From Aureimonas ureilytica DSM 18598 = NBRC 106430 (lineage in GTDB: Bacteria; Pseudomonadota; Alphaproteobacteria; Rhizobiales; Rhizobiaceae): a DNA stretch of 64,000 nucleotides. Under the pieces are notes generated by a model. That model saw only the letters and a program-made list of their open reading frames with translations, ran no database searches and was not told the DNA's origin. The stretch lies in assembly GCF_000382705.1 (NCBI RefSeq), contig NZ_ARQE01000002.1:496001-560000 (forward strand), read 5' to 3'. Below, one piece after another: positions 1-12,685 of the stretch (the stretch's first letter is position 1; every line of letters begins with the position of its first letter). The position numbers and the translations under genes are program-made.

Positions 1-2
1 AC

Positions 3-122
3 GGCGAGGCGACAACCGTCGGGTACGGCGGAGCGCAGACGTTCGCCGTCGATCGCGAACGGCTGGCCTGGAGCTACGAGCCACCCGTTCCCAGCGGCGT
101 GCCGAGAGACGGACGGACCTGA
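3..122 (+). CDS. C-terminal end of an unidentified protein (5' end outside window)
   Basis: An open frame runs in from the left edge and stops at TGA 120-122, giving the last 39 residues of a protein. The piece reads GEATTVGYGGAQTF, then DRERLAWSYEPPVP, which looks like real protein rather than a random GC-rich translation. Too little is visible to name a family. It is followed by about 140 bases without a gene and then the secreted-protein gene at 261. It should belong to the same island as the genes downstream. The call rests only on reading frame and composition. Confidence 0.4.
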   Translation, partial: GEATTVGYGGAQTFAVDRERLAWSYEPPVPSGVPRDGRT

Positions 123-260
123 CCGCCGGGCGGGCCGCGCCGGATCGCTGACCGATCCACGCTCACGGCCACGTAGCCGACGACCGTCACGACCCCTTGC
201 CACGACCCCAAGACCAAACATCGCCGTTCCGCAACCGGACGGCAAACGGAGACCCATGTC

Positions 261-632
261 ATGAAGCTTACCCTTGCCCTCGCGCTCCTGTCGCTGACCA
301 CCCCCGCGGCGTCCGCCCAGTCCCTCGTGCCGGGATCGGACTACTTCCTCGACCAGGCCGACGGGATCCAGACGCACCGGGTGGCCACCGACGACCACCA
401 TGGCGGCGATCCGTCGGCCAGCAACCTGACCCACGAGTTCCGCCAGTATGGCTACCCCCTGCCCCGGAACGAGGCATTCATCCCCGGGCTGATTGCCTCC
501 TCGCACGCGACCAAGGCCGAGCAGGCGGTGGCCCTGAAGTCGGTCGTCGAGGGGACGTCCCATGTCCCCGTCGCGACGACCGAGGTCGCGCCCTCGTTCC
601 TCGTGCCCGGATCGAGCTACGGCCGTCGCTGA
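261..632 (+). CDS. small secreted protein of unknown function
   Basis: The product is 123 residues. A clear signal peptide (residues 1-19, ending TPAASA) predicts export to the periplasm. A GGAG sits about 9 bases before the ATG. The mature chain opens with SLVPGSDYF and closes with FLVPGSSYG, so an LVPGSxY motif brackets the protein at both ends. Between them is a short His/Asp-rich patch (HRVATDDHHGGD). I do not recognise a family. It lies about 180 bases upstream of the cobalt/nickel efflux pair, and the His-rich patch makes a periplasmic metal-binding role conceivable, but that is inference only. Codon use is compatible with a real gene. Confidence 0.6.
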   Translation: MKLTLALALLSLTTPAASAQSLVPGSDYFLDQADGIQTHRVATDDHHGGDPSASNLTHEFRQYGYPLPRNEAFIPGLIASSHATKAEQAVALKSVVEGTSHVPVATTEVAPSFLVPGSSYGRR

Positions 633-790
633 CGTCGCAGCACTGGTCGGGCCGTCTGGAGGCGGCCCGACCTGATCAAGCAGTCCTCCGTTCGAGTATC
701 GCATGAATTCAATCGACCGGGCCGCCCGCGACCAAGCGTCGACGAGCGATCGCTCCGTCCGGCCGCGTAGAAAGCCGTGGCCACCGTTAC

Positions 791-814
791 CCATATAGCG
801 TAGGGGGGTATGCC
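791..814 (+). promoter_or_regulatory. probable DmeR operator overlapping the dmeR ribosome-binding site
   Basis: The bases just before the dmeR ATG (815) read ATATAGCGTAGGGGGGTATG. A run of six G flanked by AT-rich TA-containing arms is the hallmark of RcnR/CsoR-family operators, which bind G/C tracts with flanking TACT-like repeats. Here the G tract also sits where the Shine-Dalgarno sequence should be, about 5 bases from the start codon. Bound repressor would cover the initiation region, and TATAGC could be the -10 element. The motif is visible; its function is inferred from the family. Confidence 0.55.
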
Positions 815-1093
815 ATGGGACACCTCATCAAAGACAAGACCAAGCTCATTGCCCGCGTCCGCCGGCTTCAGGGCCAGCTCGAAGCCGTTGCCCGAAGCCT
901 CGACGAGGAGGCCCCCTGCGGGGACATCCTCCAGCTCGTCGCCTCCGTCCGCGGCGCCCTCAACGGGCTAACGGTCGAGCTGATCGAGGAGCACGTGCGC
1001 AACCACGTCGTGGACCCCGAGCACGAGCCGGACCCCGAGCGGGCGAAGGGCGCGGCCGACCTTCTCGCGGTCGTCCGGACCTACCTGAAGTGA
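815..1093 (+). CDS. dmeR: RcnR/CsoR-family metal-sensing repressor (DmeR type)
   Basis: This 92-residue all-helical protein has the layout of the FrmR/RcnR/CsoR family. RVRRLQGQLEAVARSL forms helix 1, a conserved Cys lies at about 35 (APCGDILQLVASVRGALNGL), and the C-terminal helix is ELIEEHVRNHVV. Cys35 with the later His residues (EHVRNH) would form the metal site of Ni/Co sensors. In rhizobia DmeR represses dmeRF and releases DNA on binding Ni(II) or Co(II). The gene runs directly into the CDF transporter with overlapping or near-overlapping ends, as in known dmeRF operons. A G-tract operator precedes it. The exact metal cannot be proven from sequence. Confidence 0.88.
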   Translation: MGHLIKDKTKLIARVRRLQGQLEAVARSLDEEAPCGDILQLVASVRGALNGLTVELIEEHVRNHVVDPEHEPDPERAKGAADLLAVVRTYLK

Positions 1094-1107
1094 CGGAGAC
1101 GCAGACG

Positions 1108-2097
1108 ATGTCGACGACGAACCACGCGGCGGGGCATGCCCACGTCTTCCTCGGCGACGGGCACGCCCGCAACGAACGCAAGGTGTGGGCGGTGATTGCC
1201 CTGACGGTTGCCATGATGGCGATCGAGATCGTGGCCGGCACGGTCTACGGCTCCATGGCGCTCATCGCCGATGGGCTGCACATGTCGACGCACGCCGCCG
1301 CCATGCTGATCGCGGCGGGGGCCTACTACTTCGCCCGCAAACATGCCCGGAACCCGCGCTTCACCTTCGGGACGGGCAAGCTCGGCGACCTCGCCGCCTT
1401 CGCCAGCGCCGTTATCCTGGCGCTGATCGCTCTGTTCATCGCCTACGAGAGCGCCCTGCGGCTTGCCTCGCCCGTGCCGATCTCGTTCGGGCAGGCGATC
1501 GGCGTCGCCGCGGTCGGGCTCGTCGTCAACCTCGTCAGCGCGTGGCTCCTGAAGGACGACCACCACCATCACGGTCACGGGCACCATCACGGCCACGGCC
1601 ACGGCCATCACGACCACGCCCACGACGACCACCATGACCACGGTGACGCGGGTCACGCCGGCGGGCGGGACAACAACCTCCGAGCCGCCTACCTCCACGT
1701 CCTCGCGGACGCGCTGACCTCCGTGCTGGCGATCGCCGCACTCGCGCTCGGCAGCCTCTACGGCTGGGTGTGGCTCGATCCCGTCATGGGGATCGTCGGC
1801 GCTCTCGTGATCGCCCGCTGGTCGTGGGGCCTCGTCCGCGACGCCGGGGCGGTGCTGCTCGACTACGTCCCGGAGGGCGAGGATCTACCGCAGGAGATCC
1901 GTGTGGCGATCGAGGCCGACGGGGACCGGATCACCGACCTCCACGTCTGGCAGGTCGGCCCCGGGCACCACGCGGCCATCGTCTCGATCGCGACGGAGAG
2001 CCCGCTGCCGCTCGACGCCTACCGGGCGAAGCTCGCCCACATCCACGACCTGTCCCATCTGACGGTCGAGGTCGATGCTCGTCCGCGGGCGGCGTAG
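1108..2097 (+). CDS. dmeF: cation diffusion facilitator, Co/Ni efflux (DmeF type)
   Basis: This is a cation diffusion facilitator exporting divalent metal from the cytoplasm in exchange for protons. It has the DmeF N-terminus (HAHVFLGDGHARNERKVW), a first membrane-helix region with the metal site pattern ALIADGLHMSTHA, and a long His/Asp-rich cytoplasmic loop (about residues 155-185). The second metal-site helix reads LHVLADALTSVLAI, and a ferredoxin-like C-terminal domain ends in LTVEVDARPRAA. I chose the ATG at 1108; a GTG at 1090 would overlap the dmeR stop (GTGA) and add six residues. Co-transcription with dmeR argues for cobalt/nickel over zinc. Length (329 residues) is normal for the family. 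Confidence 0.9.
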   Translation: MSTTNHAAGHAHVFLGDGHARNERKVWAVIALTVAMMAIEIVAGTVYGSMALIADGLHMSTHAAAMLIAAGAYYFARKHARNPRFTFGTGKLGDLAAFASAVILALIALFIAYESALRLASPVPISFGQAIGVAAVGLVVNLVSAWLLKDDHHHHGHGHHHGHGHGHHDHAHDDHHDHGDAGHAGGRDNNLRAAYLHVLADALTSVLAIAALALGSLYGWVWLDPVMGIVGALVIARWSWGLVRDAGAVLLDYVPEGEDLPQEIRVAIEADGDRITDLHVWQVGPGHHAAIVSIATESPLPLDAYRAKLAHIHDLSHLTVEVDARPRAA

Positions 2098-2241
2098 CGG
2101 CAATCGTCGATGATGCCGACGTCCCGATCGGTCGAAGGCACCCCTCGTTGGGGCTGCGAAGGTGTTGCCGCCCCGCCCTTGCCGTGGCCGACGCACAAGG
2201 GATGGGGGTGTCGACGGTCGAGAAACGGGGGCCGAGACGCG

Positions 2242-3633
2242 CTATGGGGCGCCGATGAGGGGAACGAGGAGAACCAGCAAGACGAAAATGCACGCCGCCA
2301 CGTTGAAGGCTCGCCGCGTCTTTCGGCGTGTCTCGTTGTAGAGCTTCACCGCCTCGATGACGGGCGACACCGCCAGGGTCCTGTACTCCGCCCGCGTGAG
2401 GCTCTGGTGAAGGCGCGAATGCCAACGGCGCAGATGCCTGAGATCGGACAGGAGCGAGCGCGTTGACACCAGCTCGTTCAATCTCAGGCCGGACCACGTC
2501 ACGAACAGGACGACGATGCAGAAGATTGCGGCCGGCAGCGCTCCCGTCGGGGCGGCGGCGGATGTGGCAATCCTCACCCCGAGGCCGGCCGCGAGAACGC
2601 CAAGCCCGCCGATGAACGCTTGCGACGTGCGGTTCGTCCGCGCCACGATCCTGTCGACGTCGTCGGCGACTCCCTTGCGCACGTCGGCCATGGTCTTCAA
2701 GAGGTCGGCTGACTTCGAGGTCACGAAAGTGCGGTATTCCGTTCTTGCGCCCGAAAGCGCTTCCCGAAGGTGGGGAGAGATCGCTCCCCACCAGTCGTCC
2801 TCCATCCCGTCCGGCACCAAGGGCTCGAGCCGCCTCACGAGCATCTGATGGCGCGCCTCCGCGTCGCGGGACGGCACCAAGAGCCATTCCGCCGCCTCCC
2901 TCAGCGCCTCGAACTGGCTCGGCGAACAGCGGACCGGCGGAGGAGCAGAGAAGGTCCGCTTCCTCAGTCCGCTGAGGACAACACGGCGGGAGCCGTCCCC
3001 GGCTGCCTCGACCTCGGATGCGAAGGCAAGCATCAGCCGGCCGGCGGCTGCCACCATGAAGGAGGACGAGAAGCCGTCGACGGGCAACGGGGTCGGGGGT
3101 GTCCAACGAAAAAGGTCGCCGGGCATCCGTCCTCCAGAGAGGTCGCGCACTATCCCGCGCCTGACGTCCGCGACGGCATCCGGCACTTCGGCGGCGTTCG
3201 CCTCCGCGGATGGCACGGCGGTCCCGTCCCAGGGGAGCACCGCCTTGCCGCCCGCCCGGAAGGGGCGGAAGTCGGCCAGCACGTGTATCGTGGCGGCCTC
3301 GCCGACTTGGGCATCGTCCCATGCCTTCAGGGCTGCACCCGCCCCGAGGAACCAAGCGGCCGCCGCGTCGACGGGCTTCCTCACGAGGATGTTGAGGTCG
3401 CGGGGCCAGTCGCCGGCGACCAGCGCCTGCTCGGGGATCGGTTCGAATTCGCCATCCCGCACCTCGATCGACCAGCCGTTGGCGTCGGCGAAATCGTGTG
3501 CCGCGCGCAGCGCCTCGGCCTCGCCCGGCCCGGACATCCCGGCATAGCGCCAGCCAGAGGCGTCCTCGATGACCCCGTCCCCGGCCGGGTGCAGCTCAGC
3601 TAGTAACCTTAGGGAGGGTGTCGGTCTCGTCAT
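2242..3633 (-). CDS. membrane protein of unknown function coupled to NdpA-like gene
   Basis: The product is 463 residues of unknown family. Residues 1-300 are soluble, with no motif I can name. Hydrophobic helices lie at about 338-358 and 365-384, with a third at the extreme C-terminus (about 442-462). A charged helical segment rich in Arg separates helices 2 and 3 (SDLRHLRRWHSRLHQSL). The architecture is a large N-terminal cytoplasmic domain on a C-terminal three-helix membrane anchor. The start overlaps the 3' end of the upstream NdpA-like gene by 38 bases, which implies translational coupling and a joint function. It converges on dmeF. A role as the membrane arm of a conflict or defence module is only a guess. 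Confidence 0.75.
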   Translation of the reverse strand: MTRPTPSLRLLAELHPAGDGVIEDASGWRYAGMSGPGEAEALRAAHDFADANGWSIEVRDGEFEPIPEQALVAGDWPRDLNILVRKPVDAAAAWFLGAGAALKAWDDAQVGEAATIHVLADFRPFRAGGKAVLPWDGTAVPSAEANAAEVPDAVADVRRGIVRDLSGGRMPGDLFRWTPPTPLPVDGFSSSFMVAAAGRLMLAFASEVEAAGDGSRRVVLSGLRKRTFSAPPPVRCSPSQFEALREAAEWLLVPSRDAEARHQMLVRRLEPLVPDGMEDDWWGAISPHLREALSGARTEYRTFVTSKSADLLKTMADVRKGVADDVDRIVARTNRTSQAFIGGLGVLAAGLGVRIATSAAAPTGALPAAIFCIVVLFVTWSGLRLNELVSTRSLLSDLRHLRRWHSRLHQSLTRAEYRTLAVSPVIEAVKLYNETRRKTRRAFNVAACIFVLLVLLVPLIGAP

Positions 3634-4702
3634 CCTGCACCAGCTTGGCGGTCCTCAGCGTGATCGTGGCCGACCCGTCCTCGTCGCGTTCGACCTTCAC
3701 GATACCATTCTCCTCGTGTTCCTCGCGAAACCAAAGGGCGAAGCCCTCCCTCGCGACGAGGCGCTTGTACTCGCGCTTGGGGAGCTGCTTCCGGTCGAAC
3801 TCGAACGACTCCGTGGAGATGGCGCGGGTCGAAAGCTCGCGTCCGAAGGTCTTGAGGACGGCCTCCTTGGCCGGCCCGTCCAGTCCGCCCGCCAGCGCAC
3901 CCCAGAGTTCCTCCGGCGTGTCGCTGTCGAAGCCCTCCAGCCGCTCGAATGTCTCGCGCAGCCGCCGGGTCGGCGCCTTCGCCACCTCGAGCGGCATCTC
4001 CTCCCTGTGCCTCTCGATGGTCGCCCTCGCTGCCTCGAAGAGTTTCTGGGTGAGGTCGGCCCTCTCGAACGTCCGCCGGACGTCCAGGAAATTCTCGAAG
4101 TGCTGGGTCGCGTCCCGGTACCTCGACGACGACCTGTCGATCACCACGACACGGTGGCGGCGACGCGCGGCGTCCGCGTGGCCGGGGTCGGCCAAGCGGA
4201 TCACGACGGACTTCTGCATGGCCTTCCGGTCCTGCGAGAAGTTCTCCTTCACGCTTTCCATGAGGGGCTTCGGATCCGCCCCGTCCGTGTTCTCCAGGCT
4301 GTACCTGATGACGGCGTGGTGGTCGAACTTGATCAGGGCGACCAGCTTCGAGTCCCCCGTGCTCATCGCGAGCAGCATCAGGGCGCCCGCAGCCATGCGG
4401 TTGTCGCCCTTCACCTTTTCCTTGAATCGCCTCGCGAGGCTTCTCGACGTGGCGATGAATTTGTCCTCCCCGTCCGCGTCCTCCGCGCCGAGCGCCGCGG
4501 ACACGAGGGCGGGCATGCCCGATCCCTCGTTGAAGTCGTAGGAGGCCCCGCGGAGGGTGTCGACCACACGCTTGACGAAGAACTCGGGGAACTGCGGGGG
4601 GACCGCCTCGGCCAGGAAGAGCGGGTCCGGCACGTCCGGGCGCACGACGTGGAACACCATCCTGTCGATCGAGAGTGTCCCGATCTCTTCTTCGCTGAGC
4701 AT
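3596..4702 (-). CDS. nucleoid-associated protein NdpA/YejK family
   Basis: A protein of about 368 residues matches the 37-kDa nucleoid-associated (NdpA/YejK) family in its general pattern. It has an N-terminal alpha/beta region opening with IGTLSIDRMVFHVV, then a conserved helix-strand unit ARRFKEKVKGDNRMAAGALM followed by a strand VALIKFDHHAVIRY, then a helical middle and a C-terminal strand domain ending SATITLRTAKLV. I place the start at the ATG ending at 4702 because GGAGG lies 5 bases before it; an upstream in-frame start at 4738 has no such site. The family binds nucleoid DNA in Escherichia coli, with unclear function. Being locked to a membrane-protein gene on a mobile island is not the usual housekeeping context of yejK. 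Confidence 0.75.
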   Translation of the reverse strand: MLSEEEIGTLSIDRMVFHVVRPDVPDPLFLAEAVPPQFPEFFVKRVVDTLRGASYDFNEGSGMPALVSAALGAEDADGEDKFIATSRSLARRFKEKVKGDNRMAAGALMLLAMSTGDSKLVALIKFDHHAVIRYSLENTDGADPKPLMESVKENFSQDRKAMQKSVVIRLADPGHADAARRRHRVVVIDRSSSRYRDATQHFENFLDVRRTFERADLTQKLFEAARATIERHREEMPLEVAKAPTRRLRETFERLEGFDSDTPEELWGALAGGLDGPAKEAVLKTFGRELSTRAISTESFEFDRKQLPKREYKRLVAREGFALWFREEHEENGIVKVERDEDGSATITLRTAKLVQDDETDTLPKVTS

Positions 4703-4862
4703 GATTCCTCCGACGCGCTTCCGTCGAATCCCTAACAAGCCGCACCGGATCCTACAATCGAATGCACCACCCCCGATTGTGGGCCAGGCCGCCGGAAACG
4801 CGAGCCGGGCGCCGTGGCGTCGACGGTTTCCCCGGAGGTGACGGCGGATGCCATCCGCTGCG

Positions 4863-6794
4863 TCAGATCAGGTCGACCGTTCCGAGCTCGGCCAGCTTTG
4901 CTGAAAGGGCCCCTACCTCGTCGCGCCTACGTTCGACGATAAGCCGCGCCTCCGCCAGGCACGTCGACAGGAGACGCTCGACGCGATTTGGCAAGTCGGG
5001 ATCGTCGCCCGCTGCGAGATCCTCCTTCGGCACGGACGACAGCCTCTCGCCCAGTCCGAGCGAGCGCTCCGCCGACCGGGCGAGCCTCGTCGCCCTCACG
5101 AGATCCGCGTCCGCGCTGCCGCCCGACACGTCGCCGCGAGAACCGAGGATGACCTCCTCCGCTGCCATGCCTGCCAGGAACACCATCAGGATAGCCTCGA
5201 CGCACTCCCGCGTCCTGTCGAACCCCTCGACCATCCGGAAGTCGGTTCTGTTCGCCTTGCCGTGCCGGACGTGGCGCCGGACACACGCGCCGGTGGGGAC
5301 GAGGCCCGAAACGGGTGCCAACTCCATCCCGACGACGAGATGCCCGGCCTCGTGCACGCATGCGCGCCGGAACGACGCCTCGGTGAGTTCGACGCCCTTT
5401 GGAACGGCGGCCCAAAGATCGGCCTCGGACAGGGGACGGCTCTCCCGCCGGGCCGCGGCACGCGCCTCGCGAACGATTTGGGCAAGCACGGCACCCGACG
5501 CCCCTCCCACCTCGTCCGCCAGCCCACCGAGATCGACGTCCGCCAGCTCGCCGCGCAAGTGATGTCGCAGGATGCCGAGCCTGCCCTGGAGGTCGGGAAG
5601 CTGGATCTCGACGATGCGGCCGAGCCGGCCGGGCCTCAGGATCGCAGGATCGATGCTATCCAACTTGTTTGTGGCTCCGAGGACTACCACCCCGCCACGC
5701 CCGACGGTTCCGTCGAGAGACTCTAGGAGACCATTCACCACCTGTCGCTGGTAGGAGCTGTGGTCGCCGACAGGCTCGTCCCGGCTCCCGACGGAATCGA
5801 GCTCGTCGATGAAGAGGACGCACGGCGCGCACTTGCGGGCCTCGTCGAAGGCAGCGCGCAGCGCCTTGAGCAAGTCGCCCAAGTGGCCCTTGGCCTGCCA
5901 TGAAGCGAAGGAATGCGAAAACAGCGGGATGCCGCAGGACCCCGCCAACGCACGGGCGAACAACGTTTTCCCCGTCCCGGGCGGACCATGGAGGATGGCA
6001 CCGTTCTCGATGTCGCACCACGGCAAGGCTCCCCCCCGGTAACGCGCGAGGTCGGCGGCGAGCGACAGGCCCCACCGCTGCCCCTCCCCCATGCCGTGCA
6101 GGTCCTCAAGCCGTTCGGGGTGTCCGTCGCCGGACGGGGAAACGGGCCGAATGACTTCCGGCGTCCTCCGCTGCTTCTGGCCGTGCGGCTTTGCTTTGCC
6201 GTCCCCGTTCCCGCTCGCCGTTCGCCGCAGCCGACCGGCGACGGTCCACATGCGCTCGCGCGACGCCCCGGGGCGCAGGACAAGGTTGAGGTACGTGAGC
6301 GGCAACGCCGACAGGCGCCTGACGAGCGCCTCGTCGGCCCGAAACTTGCCGATCTCCTCGACGAAGCACTCAACCACCGCCGTGCGACTCGCGAGCGGCA
6401 GGACGGCGTCGGCGACGGTGGCCACGACGGCCGGCACCTCCGAACGCTTCGTGCAAAGCACGATCATTGTGCGGGTTGCGACGCTGGCCTCGTTCAAGAG
6501 ACGTTGGATGTAGTCTGGACGCTGCCCCTCCAAGTCCGTCCAATCCCGCACCTTGGCATCCACGCTCCAGGCGTCGTCCTCGGTGCCGCCGATCAGGTCC
6601 TGCGCGGCCAGGTTGAGGACGGCGGCGTCGTCGGGACGAATTCCGTAGACGACGACGAGGCTCGCCGTTCGCGACAGGGCCTGAGGAAATCGACCCTCGG
6701 TGAACGTCGCCCGCAGCAGTTCGTCCGCGATCCTCGTTGCGGGCATCAGGCGTCCGGCGATCGAGTTGGGCGTGATGTCGAGGCGCCTAGACAT
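4863..6794 (-). CDS. soluble AAA+ ATPase with M41 (FtsH-like) zinc protease domain
   Basis: The product is 643 residues. Residues 1-230 form a unique N-terminal region. The AAA+ module follows, with Walker A GPPGTGKT (270-277), Walker B FIDELD (328-333), sensor GATNKLD and the FtsH-type arginine finger stretch LRPGRLGR. The M41 peptidase comes last: zinc motif HEAGH (481-485) and a likely third ligand Asp in GGSADADLVRA. Unlike cellular FtsH (about 610-640 residues with two N-terminal membrane helices), it has no membrane helix; the N-terminal domain replaces them. It is therefore probably a cytosolic ATP-driven protease whose N-domain chooses substrates. Its start overlaps the stop of the small upstream gene by 8 bases. 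Active-site residues look intact. Confidence 0.88.
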   Translation of the reverse strand: MSRRLDITPNSIAGRLMPATRIADELLRATFTEGRFPQALSRTASLVVVYGIRPDDAAVLNLAAQDLIGGTEDDAWSVDAKVRDWTDLEGQRPDYIQRLLNEASVATRTMIVLCTKRSEVPAVVATVADAVLPLASRTAVVECFVEEIGKFRADEALVRRLSALPLTYLNLVLRPGASRERMWTVAGRLRRTASGNGDGKAKPHGQKQRRTPEVIRPVSPSGDGHPERLEDLHGMGEGQRWGLSLAADLARYRGGALPWCDIENGAILHGPPGTGKTLFARALAGSCGIPLFSHSFASWQAKGHLGDLLKALRAAFDEARKCAPCVLFIDELDSVGSRDEPVGDHSSYQRQVVNGLLESLDGTVGRGGVVVLGATNKLDSIDPAILRPGRLGRIVEIQLPDLQGRLGILRHHLRGELADVDLGGLADEVGGASGAVLAQIVREARAAARRESRPLSEADLWAAVPKGVELTEASFRRACVHEAGHLVVGMELAPVSGLVPTGACVRRHVRHGKANRTDFRMVEGFDRTRECVEAILMVFLAGMAAEEVILGSRGDVSGGSADADLVRATRLARSAERSLGLGERLSSVPKEDLAAGDDPDLPNRVERLLSTCLAEARLIVERRRDEVGALSAKLAELGTVDLI

Positions 6795-7122
6795 CGGACA
6801 CCTCCGCCGCGGCGTCGCCCAGGCGCCAGAAGCGGCTGGCGGTGCGGGCGAAACCTTGCTCGAGGGACAGAAAGCACAGCGGGGACGTCACGGCAGCCTT
6901 TCGTCCGGAGACGTGCGGATGGCCGTGGGGGCGTCCCACGAGACAAGGGACCTTGCGCGCGGCCGGGGACCCGTCGTCGAGAAGGGGCGCGGCGGCCAAG
7001 ATGTGACCCCGGGGCAAGCCGCGATCGCGAAGGTGGCAAAGGTCGCGCAGGAGGTCGGAAACTCGCTCGATCTCGGTGTCGAGCTGGTCTCGCCACCCAG
7101 GAGCGGTCAGAAGGATGGTCAT
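6787..7122 (-). CDS. small hypothetical protein, partner of AAA+/M41 protease
   Basis: A product of about 111 residues begins MTILLTAPGWRDQLDTEIER. An acidic helix comes first (IERVSDLLRDLCHLRD), then an alpha/beta-like stretch with GHPHVSGRKAAVTSPLCFLSLEQGF. I do not recognise a family. Its stop (6787-6789) lies inside the first codons of the protease gene, so the two are co-translated. That makes it a candidate adaptor, substrate or sensor for the protease. The start was taken at ATG 7122 because residues upstream in the same frame are low-complexity Pro/Arg/Ser, typical of non-coding GC-rich DNA; no clear Shine-Dalgarno supports it. Bases 7123-7324 show no gene. Confidence 0.6.
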   Translation of the reverse strand: MTILLTAPGWRDQLDTEIERVSDLLRDLCHLRDRGLPRGHILAAAPLLDDGSPAARKVPCLVGRPHGHPHVSGRKAAVTSPLCFLSLEQGFARTASRFWRLGDAAAEVSDV

Positions 7123-7324
7123 GGGGTGTGCTCTCGCTCTGGCCGCTCGCGGCGGCGCGGTACCGACGATGGTGGGCGTCAGTTGGCGAGGCATATCCGT
7201 GCGGTGGGGATGGCTAGACCCGGCGCCGCTTGGTGCCACAGGACCCGACAAGGTGCCAGTCCCCGGTGCGGCGCCTGCGGGGCGCTTGCCTCCGCCAAGC
7301 CTGCCTTCGGAACGGACCGCACGG

Positions 7325-8086
7325 TCAGTCCACCTCGACCGCCACGCGGCCAACCCTGAGGCGGAACTCGTCGGCAAACGCGTCCACGCGCTCCCTGGCC
7401 GACGGCATTTCGGTGATTGCGTAGGGCAGCCGCCTGAAGGGGCCGACTTGGGCCGCGGCATAGGCGGACCATGCCGCGGCCTGCCAGACGAGCTCGCTGC
7501 CGTCGCCCTCGAGGTGCCAGTCCTGTACGTAGGCTGCGAGCGCGGCTTCCGCGGCAACGGCACGCGCGGCGTCGACGTCGCCCAGCAGTGCGGCGTAGAT
7601 CACGCAGCGGAGGCGAATGCTACCGTCTGCGTCTGCTTCGGACGACAGGCGGCATGCCCGCAGCGCACTCAGGATGGCCGTGTCGTCCGGTTCACCGTCC
7701 TGCTTGCCGACGCGCGATGCCTCCGCAAGCCGGCGCAGCGAGGCTGCCGCCTCCTCGTCCGTCAGCTCTACAAAGGCGCTATCCACGAATCCTTCAATGT
7801 CGCGCCTGATGTCTTTCCCGAGGAGCGGATGGCCGCGCAGGAGCTCTTCGGCGGACGGGAGGCGTGCCCCGAGTGAAGTCTCCCGACGGTTCGCCTCGTC
7901 CGCATGGCGCGCGGACCTCCGGTCGCGGCGTGCCTGGGCCATTCCCAGGATCTCTTCGTGAATGGGTGGGACTGGGGGCACGTCATCGACCTCCGCTCGC
8001 GCGCCCCGCCGCGGGAAGGGTCGTCCCCCGCGAATCGGCGACGCCGTCGTTCGATGGCGATTCCTTACGACGTGGAAACGAAACAT
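7325..8086 (-). CDS. hypothetical helical protein, first gene of the protease module
   Basis: A protein of up to 253 residues. The first 48 residues are basic and uneven, and a start at the internal Met49 (7942, MAQARRDRRSARH) is possible. The rest is strongly helical and Ala/Glu/Arg-rich, for example LTDEEAAASLRRLAEASRVG and VDAARAVAAEAALAAYVQDW, like an alpha-solenoid or helical bundle. I recognise no enzyme motif or membrane segment. It is on the same strand as, and about 200 bases upstream of, the small gene and the AAA+/M41 protease. It faces away from the XRE regulator across a short region holding a perfect palindrome. I infer one regulated module. Confidence 0.6.
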   Translation of the reverse strand: MFRFHVVRNRHRTTASPIRGGRPFPRRGARAEVDDVPPVPPIHEEILGMAQARRDRRSARHADEANRRETSLGARLPSAEELLRGHPLLGKDIRRDIEGFVDSAFVELTDEEAAASLRRLAEASRVGKQDGEPDDTAILSALRACRLSSEADADGSIRLRCVIYAALLGDVDAARAVAAEAALAAYVQDWHLEGDGSELVWQAAAWSAYAAAQVGPFRRLPYAITEMPSARERVDAFADEFRLRVGRVAVEVD

Positions 8087-8115
8087 GCAATGGACTGCAC
8101 TCTCAAGCTAACGCA

Positions 8116-8132
8116 CTGCACCTCAGGTGCAG
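8116..8132. promoter_or_regulatory. perfect palindrome in divergent promoter region (candidate XRE operator)
   Basis: The 17 bases CTGCACCTCAGGTGCAG form a perfect inverted repeat with 8-base arms around one central C. It lies between the divergent starts of the helical-protein gene (8086) and the XRE regulator (8194). A TTGACA hexamer follows at 8157-8162 on the + strand with only a weak -10. Size and placement fit an XRE-type dimer operator controlling both directions. The palindrome is seen directly; the regulator assignment is inferred. Confidence 0.5.
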
Positions 8133-8193
8133 CGGAACGCACGGCCTCGCTAATTGTTGACAAAAGTGGCACAGGGGCGATGCTCAGGCGCAG

Positions 8194-8502
8194 ATGCCCT
8201 TCGATCCGAACCTCCTCCAAGCCGCGCGGCTGCTGGCCAAACTCTCCCTCGACGAGTTGGCGGAACGGTCCCAGGTGTCGCGCCGCTCGCTCCTGAACTT
8301 GGAGGCGGGCAATCCCGACTGCCTGCTCTCCACGTTGGAGATCTTGAAGCAGGTCTTGGAGGAAGAGGGCGTGATCTTCTTGGGCGAGACGGAGTCGCAT
8401 GGTCCTGGCGTTCGCGTCTCTCGCGAAACCGGTTTGGACTGGACGCGGAAACGAGCTGACCAGCGTCGCAGCCGGATGAACCAAGCCGAACCTGAAACCT
8501 GA
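8194..8502 (+). CDS. XRE-family helix-turn-helix regulator
   Basis: The product is 102 residues. Residues 7-60 form a Cro/C1-type helix-turn-helix: LLQAARLLAKLSLDELAERS, then VSRRSLLNLEAG, then STLEILKQVLEEEGVIFL. The 'add-on' VIFLGE strand after the fifth helix is common in small standalone XRE repressors. The remaining tail is basic and likely disordered. It is divergent from the protease module with a perfect palindrome between, so autoregulation and control of that module are the natural hypothesis. No toxin gene is adjacent, which makes an antitoxin role less likely. Confidence 0.8.
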   Translation: MPFDPNLLQAARLLAKLSLDELAERSQVSRRSLLNLEAGNPDCLLSTLEILKQVLEEEGVIFLGETESHGPGVRVSRETGLDWTRKRADQRRSRMNQAEPET

Positions 8503-8964
8503 TAGCAGTCCGCCCGCCACCTCCATTCGAGAGCGGCCTGACCCAACTGGACTCCATGTTCGGCGCGCGGCACGTTCGACGTCAGGTCGTGGCGACTGCG
8601 GATGGGGCGGGAGGTCAGCACCTTAGCTTCAGATGATAGCAAGGGGGTGCCGGCCAGGCACGGGGCGGCAAGGAAGGGTGGGCCTCGATCCGCGTCCTCG
8701 ACCGCAGCAAGCGCTCGGAGGTCGGGGCCGGCGCGGGAGGAATGGGCAGGCATCCCCAATGCTCCATTCGGATGCCCTCACCGCCCACTGGCGGGCGCGC
8801 GGGCATCGGTCAGGGGCGCCCGATGGGACAACGACTGGACGAAGCGCATATCGGTCGCCGCCCGAGCCGAACCTGCACCTCTGCCGATGGCGCGCATGGC
8901 GTGCGGTACGGGTTGCCGATGCACGGGACCGGAGCTTCTCGCCCCGGCGCCTGGTTCGACTTTC
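8503..8964. other. 462-bp stretch with no supportable gene
   Basis: The region lies between two convergent genes, the XRE regulator and dinB. Several open frames cross it on both strands, but all are Arg/Pro/Gly-rich, lack a Shine-Dalgarno and resemble nothing. Composition is as GC-rich as the flanks. I see no strong terminator hairpin, repeat or RNA. It could hold eroded coding sequence. Confidence 0.5.
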
Positions 8965-10149
8965 CTAGAACGCCAACGAGAGCTGGGGGCCATCATCCGT
9001 CCCGACCTCGTCGGCCTCGGTGTTGAGACCCGAAAGGGAAACGCCGAGGAGACGGACGGGCCTTGGCATGGGGAAGAGACCCGCGAGCAGTTCTGCGCTG
9101 ATCCGGGCGATGCCGTCCCTACTCTGGACTTCGTCCTGCACCGACCGGCTTCGCGTGATCTGCTGGAAGTCCTGGTACTTGACCTTCAGGGTGACGGTAC
9201 GTCCGCGTATCCCGGTTCTCGCGCAGTGGTTCCATACCTTGTCGATGATCGGAGCCAGGACTTCAGTCATCTCCTCGTAGGAGGAGAGGTCGTGCTCGAA
9301 GGTGTTCTCGGCACCAACGGACTTCCTGACGCGATCCGGTTGGACTGGGCGCTCGTCGATACCTCGGGCGATCCAATAATAGTAAATCCCGGATTTCCCG
9401 AAGTTTTGTCGGAGGAAATCAACCGACTTCGCCCGCAAGTCCAGGCCAGTGAAGATGCCGAGACGATTCATCTTCTCCTCGGTCTTTTGTCCGATGCCAT
9501 GAAACTTGCCGATACGGAGGCTGGCGACAAACGATGGAGCCATATCCGGAGTAATAACGAACTGGCCATTCGGCTTGTTTTGGTCGGATGCCATCTTGCT
9601 TAAAAATTTGTTCACGCTGATGCCAGCAGACGCTGTCAAGCTGGTTTCGTCCCAGATGCGAGCCCGTATCTCCCTCGCGATCTGGGTGGCGTACTCGACA
9701 CCCTTCAGATTCTCGGTGACGTCGAGGTACGCCTCGTCAAGCGACAGCGGCTCGATCAAGGACGTATACTCGGAGAAAATCGCCCTGATCTGAAGCGAGA
9801 CTTCCTTGTACACGTCGAAGCGCGGCTTCACGAACACGAGTTCGGGGCACGAGCGCTTCGCGGTGACTGACGGCATGGCCGAGTGAACCCCGAAGCGCCT
9901 CGCTTCGTAGCTCGCCGCCGCGACCACGCCCCGTTCCCGCGATCCTCCGACGGCGACGGGCCTGCCGCGCAGCGCTGGGTTATCCCTTTGCTCCACGCTC
10001 GCATAGAAAGCGTCCATGTCGACATGGATGACCTTACGCTGACGCGCCGGCTCACGGAGCGCATCCGACGCAAGTGCGGCCTGCGTATGGTCCGGGTCAG
10101 TGTCGGGCATTGCCGGGCCTTGCATTCCCCAGAGTTTGAGCTCCCCCAT
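8965..10149 (-). CDS. dinB: DNA polymerase IV (Y family), island-borne copy
   Basis: A full-length Y-family translesion polymerase. The palm opens with HVDMDAFYASVEQRDNP (first catalytic Asp), the steric-gate region follows, SLDEAYLDVT supplies the Asp-Glu pair, and the thumb has helix-hairpin-helix IGKFHGIGQKTEEKMNRLGI. The little-finger domain includes RKSVGAENTFEHDL and ends SLAF, a beta-clamp-like tail. ATG at 10149 is used; a GTG at 10164 and ATGs at 10125 and 10110 are alternatives. It lies antiparallel to a truncated second dinB at 10375 that it only partly resembles. A stretch of AT-rich codons (9595-9617) falls exactly where the other copy is broken. Expected role is damage bypass and SOS mutagenesis. 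Confidence 0.93.
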   Translation of the reverse strand: MGELKLWGMQGPAMPDTDPDHTQAALASDALREPARQRKVIHVDMDAFYASVEQRDNPALRGRPVAVGGSRERGVVAAASYEARRFGVHSAMPSVTAKRSCPELVFVKPRFDVYKEVSLQIRAIFSEYTSLIEPLSLDEAYLDVTENLKGVEYATQIAREIRARIWDETSLTASAGISVNKFLSKMASDQNKPNGQFVITPDMAPSFVASLRIGKFHGIGQKTEEKMNRLGIFTGLDLRAKSVDFLRQNFGKSGIYYYWIARGIDERPVQPDRVRKSVGAENTFEHDLSSYEEMTEVLAPIIDKVWNHCARTGIRGRTVTLKVKYQDFQQITRSRSVQDEVQSRDGIARISAELLAGLFPMPRPVRLLGVSLSGLNTEADEVGTDDGPQLSLAF

Positions 10150-10374
10150 GCGCTCCGTGTTCACGAAATGTACTCCACGGACGAACTCGGCTCAACCGGG
10201 GCGAGTCATGCGATCCACAACTGATGGGGTGTCAAATGTGGCCGTCGCCGTCGGTGGGTTCTTCAGATCGCACCATGTCGGCCACGAATAGTTCACGGCT
10301 TTTCGTAAACTGACCCGAAACGATGAGCATTATCAACGCTCTCTCTCTCAGTTGACAGCCGAACCTAACTATAA

Positions 10375-11016
10375 AAGTTCCTCGCCAAGCTCGCTTCCGA
10401 CCATCGCAAGCCGGACGGGCTCTTCGTCATCACGCCGGCCATGGGCGCGGGTTTCGTGGAATCGCTTCCCGTCGGGCGCTTCCATGGCGTCGGGCCGGCC
10501 ACCGCCGCGAAGATGGAACGGCTCGGCATCCACACGGGGGCCGATCTGCGCGCCTGCACCCTGCCCTTTCTCCAGACGCATTTCGGCAAGATCGGGCCTT
10601 ATTACTACGGCATCTCGCGCGGGGTGGACGAGCGCCCGGTGCGGGCCAACCGCGTTCGCAAGTCGGTCGGCGCGGAAAACACCTTCGCAGCCGACCTGTT
10701 CGAGACCGAGGACATGCGCGAGGCGCTGGTGCCGATCCTCGACAAGGTCTGGCACTATTGCGAGGCAAGCGGGGTGCGCGGGCGCACGGTGACGCTCAAG
10801 ATCAAATATGCCGACTTCCGGCAGATCACCCGCAGCCAGTCGATGGCCCTGCCCGTGTCCAACCGCGCCGAACTGGCGCAGGTCGCCCATCACCTCCTGC
10901 ACGACCGCCCCTTCGACCGGCGCGGCGTCAGGCTTCTCGGCGTGTCCCTGTCGGCGCTGACGGGCGAGGATGCAGAGGCCGAGCGAGACGACACGCAGTT
11001 CGCCCTGCCGTTCTGA
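10375..11016 (+). pseudogene. dinB: dinB remnant: 3' part of the native DNA polymerase IV gene
   Basis: Translation from 10375 gives KFLAKLASDHRKPDGLFVI and continues to the normal C-terminus (TQFALPF). It covers the thumb (VGRFHGVGPATAAKMERLGI) and little finger (RKSVGAENTFAADL). The whole palm and fingers, including all catalytic carboxylates, are missing, and TAA at 10372-10374 closes the frame upstream. The piece cannot be an active polymerase. An ATG at 10441 could start about 191 residues, but nothing suggests it is expressed. Loss coincides with the presumed island boundary. Confidence 0.85.
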
Positions 11017-11198: not shown

Positions 11199-11636
11199 AT
11201 GACGCCCAAGTCCTTCGCCACCCTCGCCCTCGCCGCCCTTCTCGGCGCCACCGCCGCCGTGCCGGCCATGGCCAACGACGTGCGCATCGAGCAATATGGC
11301 TGGGCCAATTCGGCCGGCGGCTCGCAGCATGGCGGGCGCAACCGCATCCGCGTTTACCAGAACGGCGGCCACAACGGCATGACCGGCCAGCAATATGGCC
11401 GCGACAATCTCTCGGGCGTCGGCCAGGAAGGCTACGGCAACTCCGCCGCGACCTACCAGCGGGGCGACCGCAATGTCGCGGGCGTCGGCCAGTTCGGCTC
11501 CAACCACACGACGATCCTGACGCAGGACGGCAACGGCAATATCGCGGCCGGCGTGCAGATCGGCCGGGGCTGCGCGGCGAACGTCGCCCAGGGCGGCGGC
11601 AACAATGTCGCGGCCTTCGTTCAGACCTGCGACTGA
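11199..11636 (+). CDS. curlin-repeat secreted amyloid subunit (CsgA/CsgB-like)
   Basis: The product is 145 residues. A signal peptide (residues 1-25, ending PAMA) is followed by repeated units of about 20-22 residues with the curlin pattern of spaced Gln, Gly and Asn: VRIEQYGWANSAGGSQHG, IRVYQNGGHNGMTGQQYG, GVGQEGYGNSAATYQRG and so on. In this family the repeats stack into an amyloid beta-helix on the cell surface and in biofilm matrix. Two Cys near the C-terminus (GRGCAANV, QTCD) are unusual for a curlin. GGAG lies about 8 bases before the ATG. It is the first of three curli genes; csgG, csgE and csgF secretion genes are not in the window. Confidence 0.85.
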   Translation: MTPKSFATLALAALLGATAAVPAMANDVRIEQYGWANSAGGSQHGGRNRIRVYQNGGHNGMTGQQYGRDNLSGVGQEGYGNSAATYQRGDRNVAGVGQFGSNHTTILTQDGNGNIAAGVQIGRGCAANVAQGGGNNVAAFVQTCD

Positions 11637-12157: not shown

Positions 12158-12277
12158 TCCGACCCCACGAACCCATCGCCTGAACCCCGCTTGAATGCCG
12201 CCCTCCGACCCGGTTCAGCCGGGCCATGCGAGGATGGCGGCATCGGACACGAGCCCCGAACAGTCTGGAGATCTCCC

Positions 12278-12685
12278 ATGCGCCGCATCGCCCTGAAGCC
12301 CCTGTCTCTCGCCCTTGCTCTTGCCGGCCTCGCGCCGCTTGCGAGCCCGGCCGTCGCCGGGGGTCAGGTCTCCTGGTCGATCGCGCCGGCCGATCGCGGG
12401 CAGGCCGATATCCTGTCGACGGGCATGCGCCTCTATGCGATCGGCCGCGACTTGCGGAACGGCTCGATCGATCAGAAAGGCTTCGGCAACGTCGCGGGTC
12501 TCGCCCAGCGCGGGCGCGGCAATCTCGGTCTCGTTCGCCAGCGCGGCGACGGGCATTCGGCCGAACTCCAGCAGAATGGCGACGACAACACCTACGGGCT
12601 CTTCCAGTTCGGCCGGAACGCGCGCGACGCGGTGGTCCAGAACGGCAACGGGCGGAGCGGAGCGACCTTCAGCTACGGCTGGTAG
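12278..12685 (+). CDS. second curlin-repeat secreted protein
   Basis: The product is 135 residues. A signal peptide (residues 1-27, ending PAVAG) precedes a short linker and curlin-type repeats: GSIDQKGFGNVAGLAQRGRG, LVRQRGDGHSAELQQNGDDN, YGLFQFGRNARDAVVQNGNG. Repeats are fewer and more basic (many Arg) than in the 11199 protein, which fits a nucleator or minor subunit (CsgB-like) better than the major fibre. That split is inference. ATG 12278 has GGAG about 8 bases upstream; the frame is open further up but without a start of similar quality. It closes the curli locus, just before the glp regulatory region. Confidence 0.82.
   Translation: MRRIALKPLSLALALAGLAPLASPAVAGGQVSWSIAPADRGQADILSTGMRLYAIGRDLRNGSIDQKGFGNVAGLAQRGRGNLGLVRQRGDGHSAELQQNGDDNTYGLFQFGRNARDAVVQNGNGRSGATFSYGW

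Follow-up and report, generated by a model that had tools for sequence, protein, structure and literature searches.

A GInt-type island of Aureimonas that splits dinB and probably brings a foreign substitute for it

Introduction

Published GInts combine three recombinase genes and a small ginD with 2.5–70 kb of cargo and a short AT-rich 3′ end; they have a strict target and imperfect direct repeats of 10–17 nt, and their excision as a circle needs all four genes (PMC5385486). According to the authors, the target is probably not fully inactivated by insertion (PMC5385486), and an empty site is not always left behind by a GInt (SE paper, PMC10214605). The nearest published idea that we found for the arrangement described here is the target-gene-like gene (tgl) of Tn552-II, a Tn554-like element for which a rescue was suggested by Wan et al. 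2025 (PMC12486829). The present locus lies in Aureimonas ureilytica DSM 18598 = NBRC 106430 (genome G000). The analysed stretch, hereafter the window, comprises 64,000 nucleotides of contig NZ_ARQE01000002.1 (C2), namely C2:496001-560000, and contains the right-hand part of an island that cuts the native dinB gene and carries a complete dinB of its own.

Results

The island splits native dinB at a Lys-Phe codon pair

A first-pass annotation of the window had described a + strand dinB that is cut at the AAG codon at 10375 by an island bearing a complete dinB on the opposite strand. The break point is correct, and the second gene is complete, encoding 399 residues that score above the cut-offs of both NF002677 and IMS; the distance between the two, given as 225 bases, is 210 bp. 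The 5′ part of native dinB, sought outside the window, was located on the same contig at C2 ~457126-457652 (+). It ends with ...SAGVSYNKF followed by a stop. As this half was found, both junctions can be read, and a boundary lying elsewhere was rejected. The insertion point is the Lys-Phe codon pair of SYNKF/LAKLASD. Between the AARTTY cores the island measures 48,722 bp, which separates the two native pieces (Table 1). When the flanks were joined in a script, they gave a 361-residue DinB collinear with intact relatives (84% identity to the best match). The same joining in three other hosts, introduced below, gave DinBs of 360–362 residues, each with a best match of 88–97% identity. Beyond the stop after NKF in the N-terminal piece, no stop occurs in the compared codons of either native piece (200 codons for the 3′ piece), which fits a recent insertion.

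The 6-nt cores vary at synonymous positions. The left core is AAGTTT in G000 and AAGTTC in the other three island genomes; the right core is AAGTTC in G000 and G016, AAATTC in G009, and AAATTT in G004. Every variant encodes Lys-Phe, and insertion took place at the same codon in all four genomes. The repeat is short; by eye, it is ~7/10 identical in G016. Because the core spans two codons and its variants are synonymous, native dinB would be restored by clean excision regardless of which strand supplies the sequence that remains.

Table 1. Positions of the island, its genes, and the native dinB pieces (window coordinates unless preceded by C2)
Feature	Position	Strand	Remark
Island (48,722 bp), right-hand 10.4 kb	1..10374		homologous islands in G004, G009, G016
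Remainder of island, including ginABC end	C2:457653-496000		left of window
attL core AAGTTT	C2:457647-457652		partner of attR
ginA	C2:457764-459149		tyrosine recombinase, PF00589, 50 bits
ginB	C2:459142-460698		NF041502 'site-specific integrase', 340.4 bits, below cut-off of 350
ginC	C2:460691-462730		no family match; GinC-like genes of other islands align with most of it
RecD2-like helicase gene	C2:463576-465468		after the small genes
Metal-sensitive repressor (cargo)	815-1093	+	PF02583
Cation efflux protein (cargo)	1090-2097	+	PF01545
AAA+/M41 (FtsH-like) protein gene	4863..6794	-	right-hand module
Small helix-turn-helix protein	8194..8502	+	adjoins island dinB; PF13413 and PF01381 slightly above cut-offs
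Island dinB, complete	8965-10164	-	DNA polymerase IV, 399 aa, start codon GTG; runs opposite to native dinB
att-target counterpart in island dinB	9592..9618	-	codons S-V-N-K-F-L-S-K-M; both arms altered relative to natives
AT-rich right terminus	10165..10374	-	210 bp between island dinB and native 3′ part
Native dinB 3′ part including core	10375-11016	+	begins at AAG codon
attR core AAGTTC	10375..10380	+	codons Lys-Phe
Native dinB 3′ part beyond core (LAKLASD...)	10381..11016	+	no internal stops seen

The island recurs in other Aureimonas species

We then inspected 21 Aureimonas genomes. Four of them (G000, G004, G009, and G016) have an island that cuts native dinB at the same codon and carries a complete dinB at its right end, so that the pattern for which the annotation proposed a search recurs in three further genomes. 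These three match records named as Aureimonas sp. AU22, A. jatrophae, and A. phyllosphaerae. Ten genomes have an intact orthologue (G001, G006, G008, G010, G011, G013, G014, G018, G019, and G020), G002 has a partial dinB at a contig edge, and the remaining six have only a DinB of 37–40% identity. Leaving aside G002, a truncated dinB without the island occurs in none of the 21; this alternative, which the annotation had named as evidence against its reading, was hence rejected.

Over 55,238 bp, 6 differences separate the G004 island from that of G016, and the G009 island is 99.3% identical to both. In contrast, the dinB halves that flank the G004 and G016 islands are 83–85% identical, and those across all three genomes 79–85%. 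Near-identical islands within diverged dinB halves must stem from separate insertions. Judged from these comparisons of sequence, the three islands were transferred recently to different species and entered the host's own dinB in each. The G000 island is a diverged version, with 32.2 of its 48.7 kb homologous to the G009 island. A scan of genome contigs by ginC alignment found 20 loci, three of which, in Aureimonas, are at 90% identity and the rest at no more than 39%. Outside the four islands, the best GinA match in 101 relatives and 397 genomes from the order is 39%. All plasmid homologues of ginA fall below 60% identity, and a comparison of ginC with phages gave no match.

The island-borne dinB is foreign and conserved

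The island DinB matches NCBIfam NF002677 with 479.9 bits (cut-off 256) and Pfam IMS with 174.6 bits, above the curated cut-off. The G000 protein is 91% identical in amino acids to the island DinBs of G004, G009, and G016. In a tree of 43 rows, the two island DinBs group not with the Aureimonas natives but with a pair of DinBs from Microvirga plasmids, their sister group with support of 100/97. The gene was therefore acquired rather than duplicated, and its origin as a copy of the host gene was rejected. Comparison of the two island versions gave a dN/dS of 0.112 for dinB, 0.158–0.197 for ginABC, and 0.17 for the helicase gene, which indicates that island dinB is under purifying selection.

No further DinB of at least 37% identity was found in any of the four hosts (E ≤ 0.001). 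In G000 the remaining IMS-domain matches are weak, and one of them we take to be ImuB-like. The same genome contains, at ~5374-5960 of L009 (G000:C14:1-6500), a UmuD/LexA-like gene with a very short umuC start behind it; by eye, the two appear to be a truncated umuDC-like pair.

The target stretch is the most conserved part of native dinB and is altered in the island copy

Of all 27-nt windows in native Aureimonas dinB, the one that contains the insertion site is the most conserved (5.1% divergence, rank 1/350, mean 24%). It ranks 7/349 in 36 non-island DinB2 genes, consisting of the 10 natives, 21 genes from the order, and five from plasmids. At this site the island copies are 47–48% divergent in nucleotides from the natives, as compared with 5.1% among natives; this divergence ranks 5/212 and 4/216 when set against windows whose residue identity is as high or higher. 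Both island versions have Val in place of Tyr and Ser in place of Ala; in the other genes, conservation of these columns is 97% and 100%. Specifically, two of eight near-invariant columns are changed at the site versus three of 143 elsewhere (Fisher p = 0.023, both island copies).

The left end carries a GInt-type recombination module

The integrase that the annotation had expected is present as three tandem tyrosine-recombinase-like genes at the left end of the island. They begin ~110 bp past the cut and run in the same direction as native dinB. ginC is followed by two small genes, one of which is DUF6262-like (under cut-off) and VPA1267-like (50 bits against a cut-off of 90), while the other has no family match. 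Aside from the cargo genes in Table 1, the island encodes a heavy-metal P-type ATPase and an NA37-like protein. The right-hand module is formed by the AAA+/M41 protein, the helix-turn-helix protein, and dinB. A 5.9-kb segment at window ~4930-10833, including ~450 bp of native dinB, aligns at ~86% with the other islands. GC content is 47% over 100 bp spanning the right end, ~75 bp of which belong to the island, versus 68.5% for the island. A single sigma-70-like match at 10358-10329 (-) is directed at island dinB (1 found versus 0.1 expected), and by eye its -10 is weak in G009. A sigma-70 scan around the left junction (L006:1950-2900) found none. To the right of native dinB, two curlin-repeat-like proteins were seen by eye at 11199-11636 and 12191-12685.

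Many other gin loci lie behind ssb

We screened 28 other gin-bearing or ginA-like loci from 27 genomes, as stretches of 5.9–41 kb each that hold parts of islands; L086, L091, L094, and L095 begin close to a contig edge. None of these stretches has a DinB match, and the idea that other gin loci also sit in dinB was rejected. In all 14 loci with an ssb match, ginA or ginB is co-oriented behind ssb. These loci represent 13 genomes, as L072 and L097 share a contig, and L074 contributes a ginA-like gene only. By eye, an ssb-like frame can also be made out in L071 and L090.

LexA boxes were then considered, GTTCN7GTTC being the motif that we take to be the alphaproteobacterial box. An exact match lies upstream of split dinB in three of the four hosts and of intact dinB in six of ten, with an expectation of 0.009–0.024 per split sequence under first-order resampling. 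As a control, the window as a whole contains 4 matches versus 1.4 expected, and 4/100 shuffles reach 4. Exact boxes of this type occur upstream of ssb in 7/14 loci (6/13 genomes) and, by manual sorting, in four of the five complete alphaproteobacterial loci (L072, L075, L077, and L079; not L073). E. coli-type boxes, CTGTN8ACAG, were found upstream of ssb in none of the 14.

L075 (G008:C23:9001-29000) belongs to another Aureimonas and has a different gin operon (27–30% identity) located behind ssb; its ginC is likewise followed by the small gene and the RecD2-like helicase. The pair of VPA1267/DUF6262-like small gene and RecD2-like helicase, located in our island at L006:8214-10468 (C2:463214-465468), follows ginABC in L073, L075, L076, L077, L079, L084, L095, and L099. 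In L078, L088, L092, and L093 the helicase occurs without that small gene. The two are possibly core GInt genes beyond ginABCD. Two loci depart from the common layout: in L070 (Rhizobium sp. BG6 plasmid pRPC) ginA is opposite to ginB and ginC in a rearranged gin operon, and in L074 (G006:C11:650001-670000) a lone ginA-like gene stands behind ssb, with ginB and ginC undetected within 20 kb.

Discussion

We consider it probable that the island is a dinB-targeting GInt-type element that brings a foreign, site-altered substitute dinB for the host gene it breaks. Recombination would occur at the Lys-Phe codons in the most conserved stretch of Aureimonas dinB, and the insertion severs the only recognised gene for DNA polymerase IV (Pol IV) of the host. 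The island dinB, ~200 bp from the far end, would take over from the broken gene as the source of a working Pol IV and thereby pay for the disruption, and its altered target-like stretch should spare it from the element's own recombinases. The first-pass annotation had proposed that such an element is addictive or compensating. Compensation is favoured by purifying selection, by the lack of another DinB of at least 37% identity in the four hosts, and by the altered site. Addiction is weakened by the Lys-Phe cores: clean excision should restore native dinB, so the host would depend on the element only where it is lost inexactly or by deletion.

Coincidental cargo, in which dinB was picked up like any other accessory gene and matches the target by chance, is an unlikely explanation. 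It draws on the abundance of dinB on plasmids, where homologues of 60–80% identity occur in at least 292 of 72,556 records, and on the single origin of the pairing of target and cargo, which counts as one event because both island versions are homologous and both carry dinB. It is opposed by the base rate of such genes, ~0.001 per 50 kb for close DinB2-type matches (~25 matches of at least 53% identity in 248 other genomes of the order, with a genome of 4.3 Mb assumed) and ~0.01 per 50 kb for all DinB (217 of 249 genomes with a match). The lack of DinB from the stretches of the 28 other gin loci and the alteration of the island copy at the target site argue against it as well.

A selfish or mutator cargo is improbable to a similar or greater degree. 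Error-prone or damage-tolerant synthesis would here aid the element or the host under metal or DNA stress, apart from the disruption. Mobile genetic elements with UmuDC-like genes are known, and the island has metal-resistance genes aboard and a RecD2-type helicase gene after the gin genes. However, this explanation accounts neither for dinB as the target nor for the changes in the target stretch. Mutator cargo and compensation could also act together. An assembly or contamination artefact, conceivable for draft genomes, is practically dismissed by four genomes and four contigs that show the same junction logic with different host halves, three of them matching separate public assemblies.

Several observations weigh against substitution, self-immunity, or SOS control, aside from the plasmid abundance and the single origin given above. 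The synonymous signal at the site is weak, with a core mean of 0.25–0.28 versus 0.22 elsewhere. When windows of every residue identity are counted, the site ranks only 68/356 and 60/356. For the nucleotide rate between island and Microvirga genes, its rank is only 72/244 among windows (8/36 among conserved windows). As these nucleotide and synonymous signals are weak, the case for selection on self-immunity rests mainly on the two residue changes (p = 0.023). With respect to SOS control, G009 lacks an exact LexA box, the nearest exact box for recA of G000 lies 959 bp upstream, and island dinB has no exact box of its own, only one with a single mismatch. Moreover, the boxes of G010 and G016 are identical, hence not all boxes are independent.

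The gin genes start ~110 bp after the cut and are co-oriented with native dinB, so the dinB promoter, often with a LexA box, probably feeds them. From the arrangement of these sequences, it is reasonable to infer that mobility may be damage-inducible. A wider proposal, which we offer as possible and hold with some doubt, is that some GInts are coupled to the SOS response of their host by co-oriented insertion behind LexA-controlled promoters, often that of ssb and here that of dinB, and that damage would switch on the gin recombinases. The dinB branch could then have afforded a mid-gene site because a foreign dinB was captured and its target stretch altered, which would make the element self-immune and insertion nearly cost-free.

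Integrating elements often limit harm by using tRNA genes or gene ends, whereas here the most conserved part of a repair gene is hit. The island would be a clear example of a strategy in which the target gene is replaced, and both intact and occupied relatives exist for comparison. It would also tie the mobility of GInts to DNA damage in a way that can be tested.

Comparison with known systems

The first-pass annotation knew of no described family with this strategy. The recombination module is in fact of the published GInt type (PMC5385486), and the rescue idea has been raised for Tn552-II (PMC12486829). Searches of the open-licence PMC literature listed no report of a GInt in dinB with a substitute dinB, nor of islands that integrate into dinB. 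The GInt paper makes no mention of dinB, and among the matches listed it had none for the SOS response or LexA (PMC5385486). Target-gene replacement by a GInt is the most fitting description of the strategy.

Like GInts, the island has three tandem tyrosine-recombinase-like genes at one end, the published Gins being likened by description. It also shares variable cargo (islands of 48.7 and 55.2 kb here), an AT-rich other end, a strict target with a 6-nt core showing heteroduplex-like variants, and transfer among related species (PMC5385486). Unlike published GInts, it cuts its target mid-gene and carries the replacement (PMC5385486). The dusA-associated islands and prophages likewise reside inside a protein-coding gene and make good the loss with element sequence, but they replace only the 5′ end in place, whereas the dinB island supplies a whole separate gene (PMC4482086). 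Islands in tRNA genes (Islander) also split a target that island sequence restores; they regenerate the target itself, and the dinB island supplies a divergent whole gene elsewhere (PMC4383910). Tn552-II is similar in being a multi-recombinase element with a homologue of the gene it enters, and differs in being a 9-kb staphylococcal transposon with a YolD-like/plasmid coding sequence as its target (PMC12486829). Tn554 and Tn552-II use tnpABC and take a 7-bp att from the donor; our island has three recombinase-like genes, and its core varies at wobble positions on both sides. Finally, tgl of Tn552-II retains a copy of the att motif (i-att2), whereas island dinB has changed site arms and is a gene for a known repair polymerase (PMC12486829).
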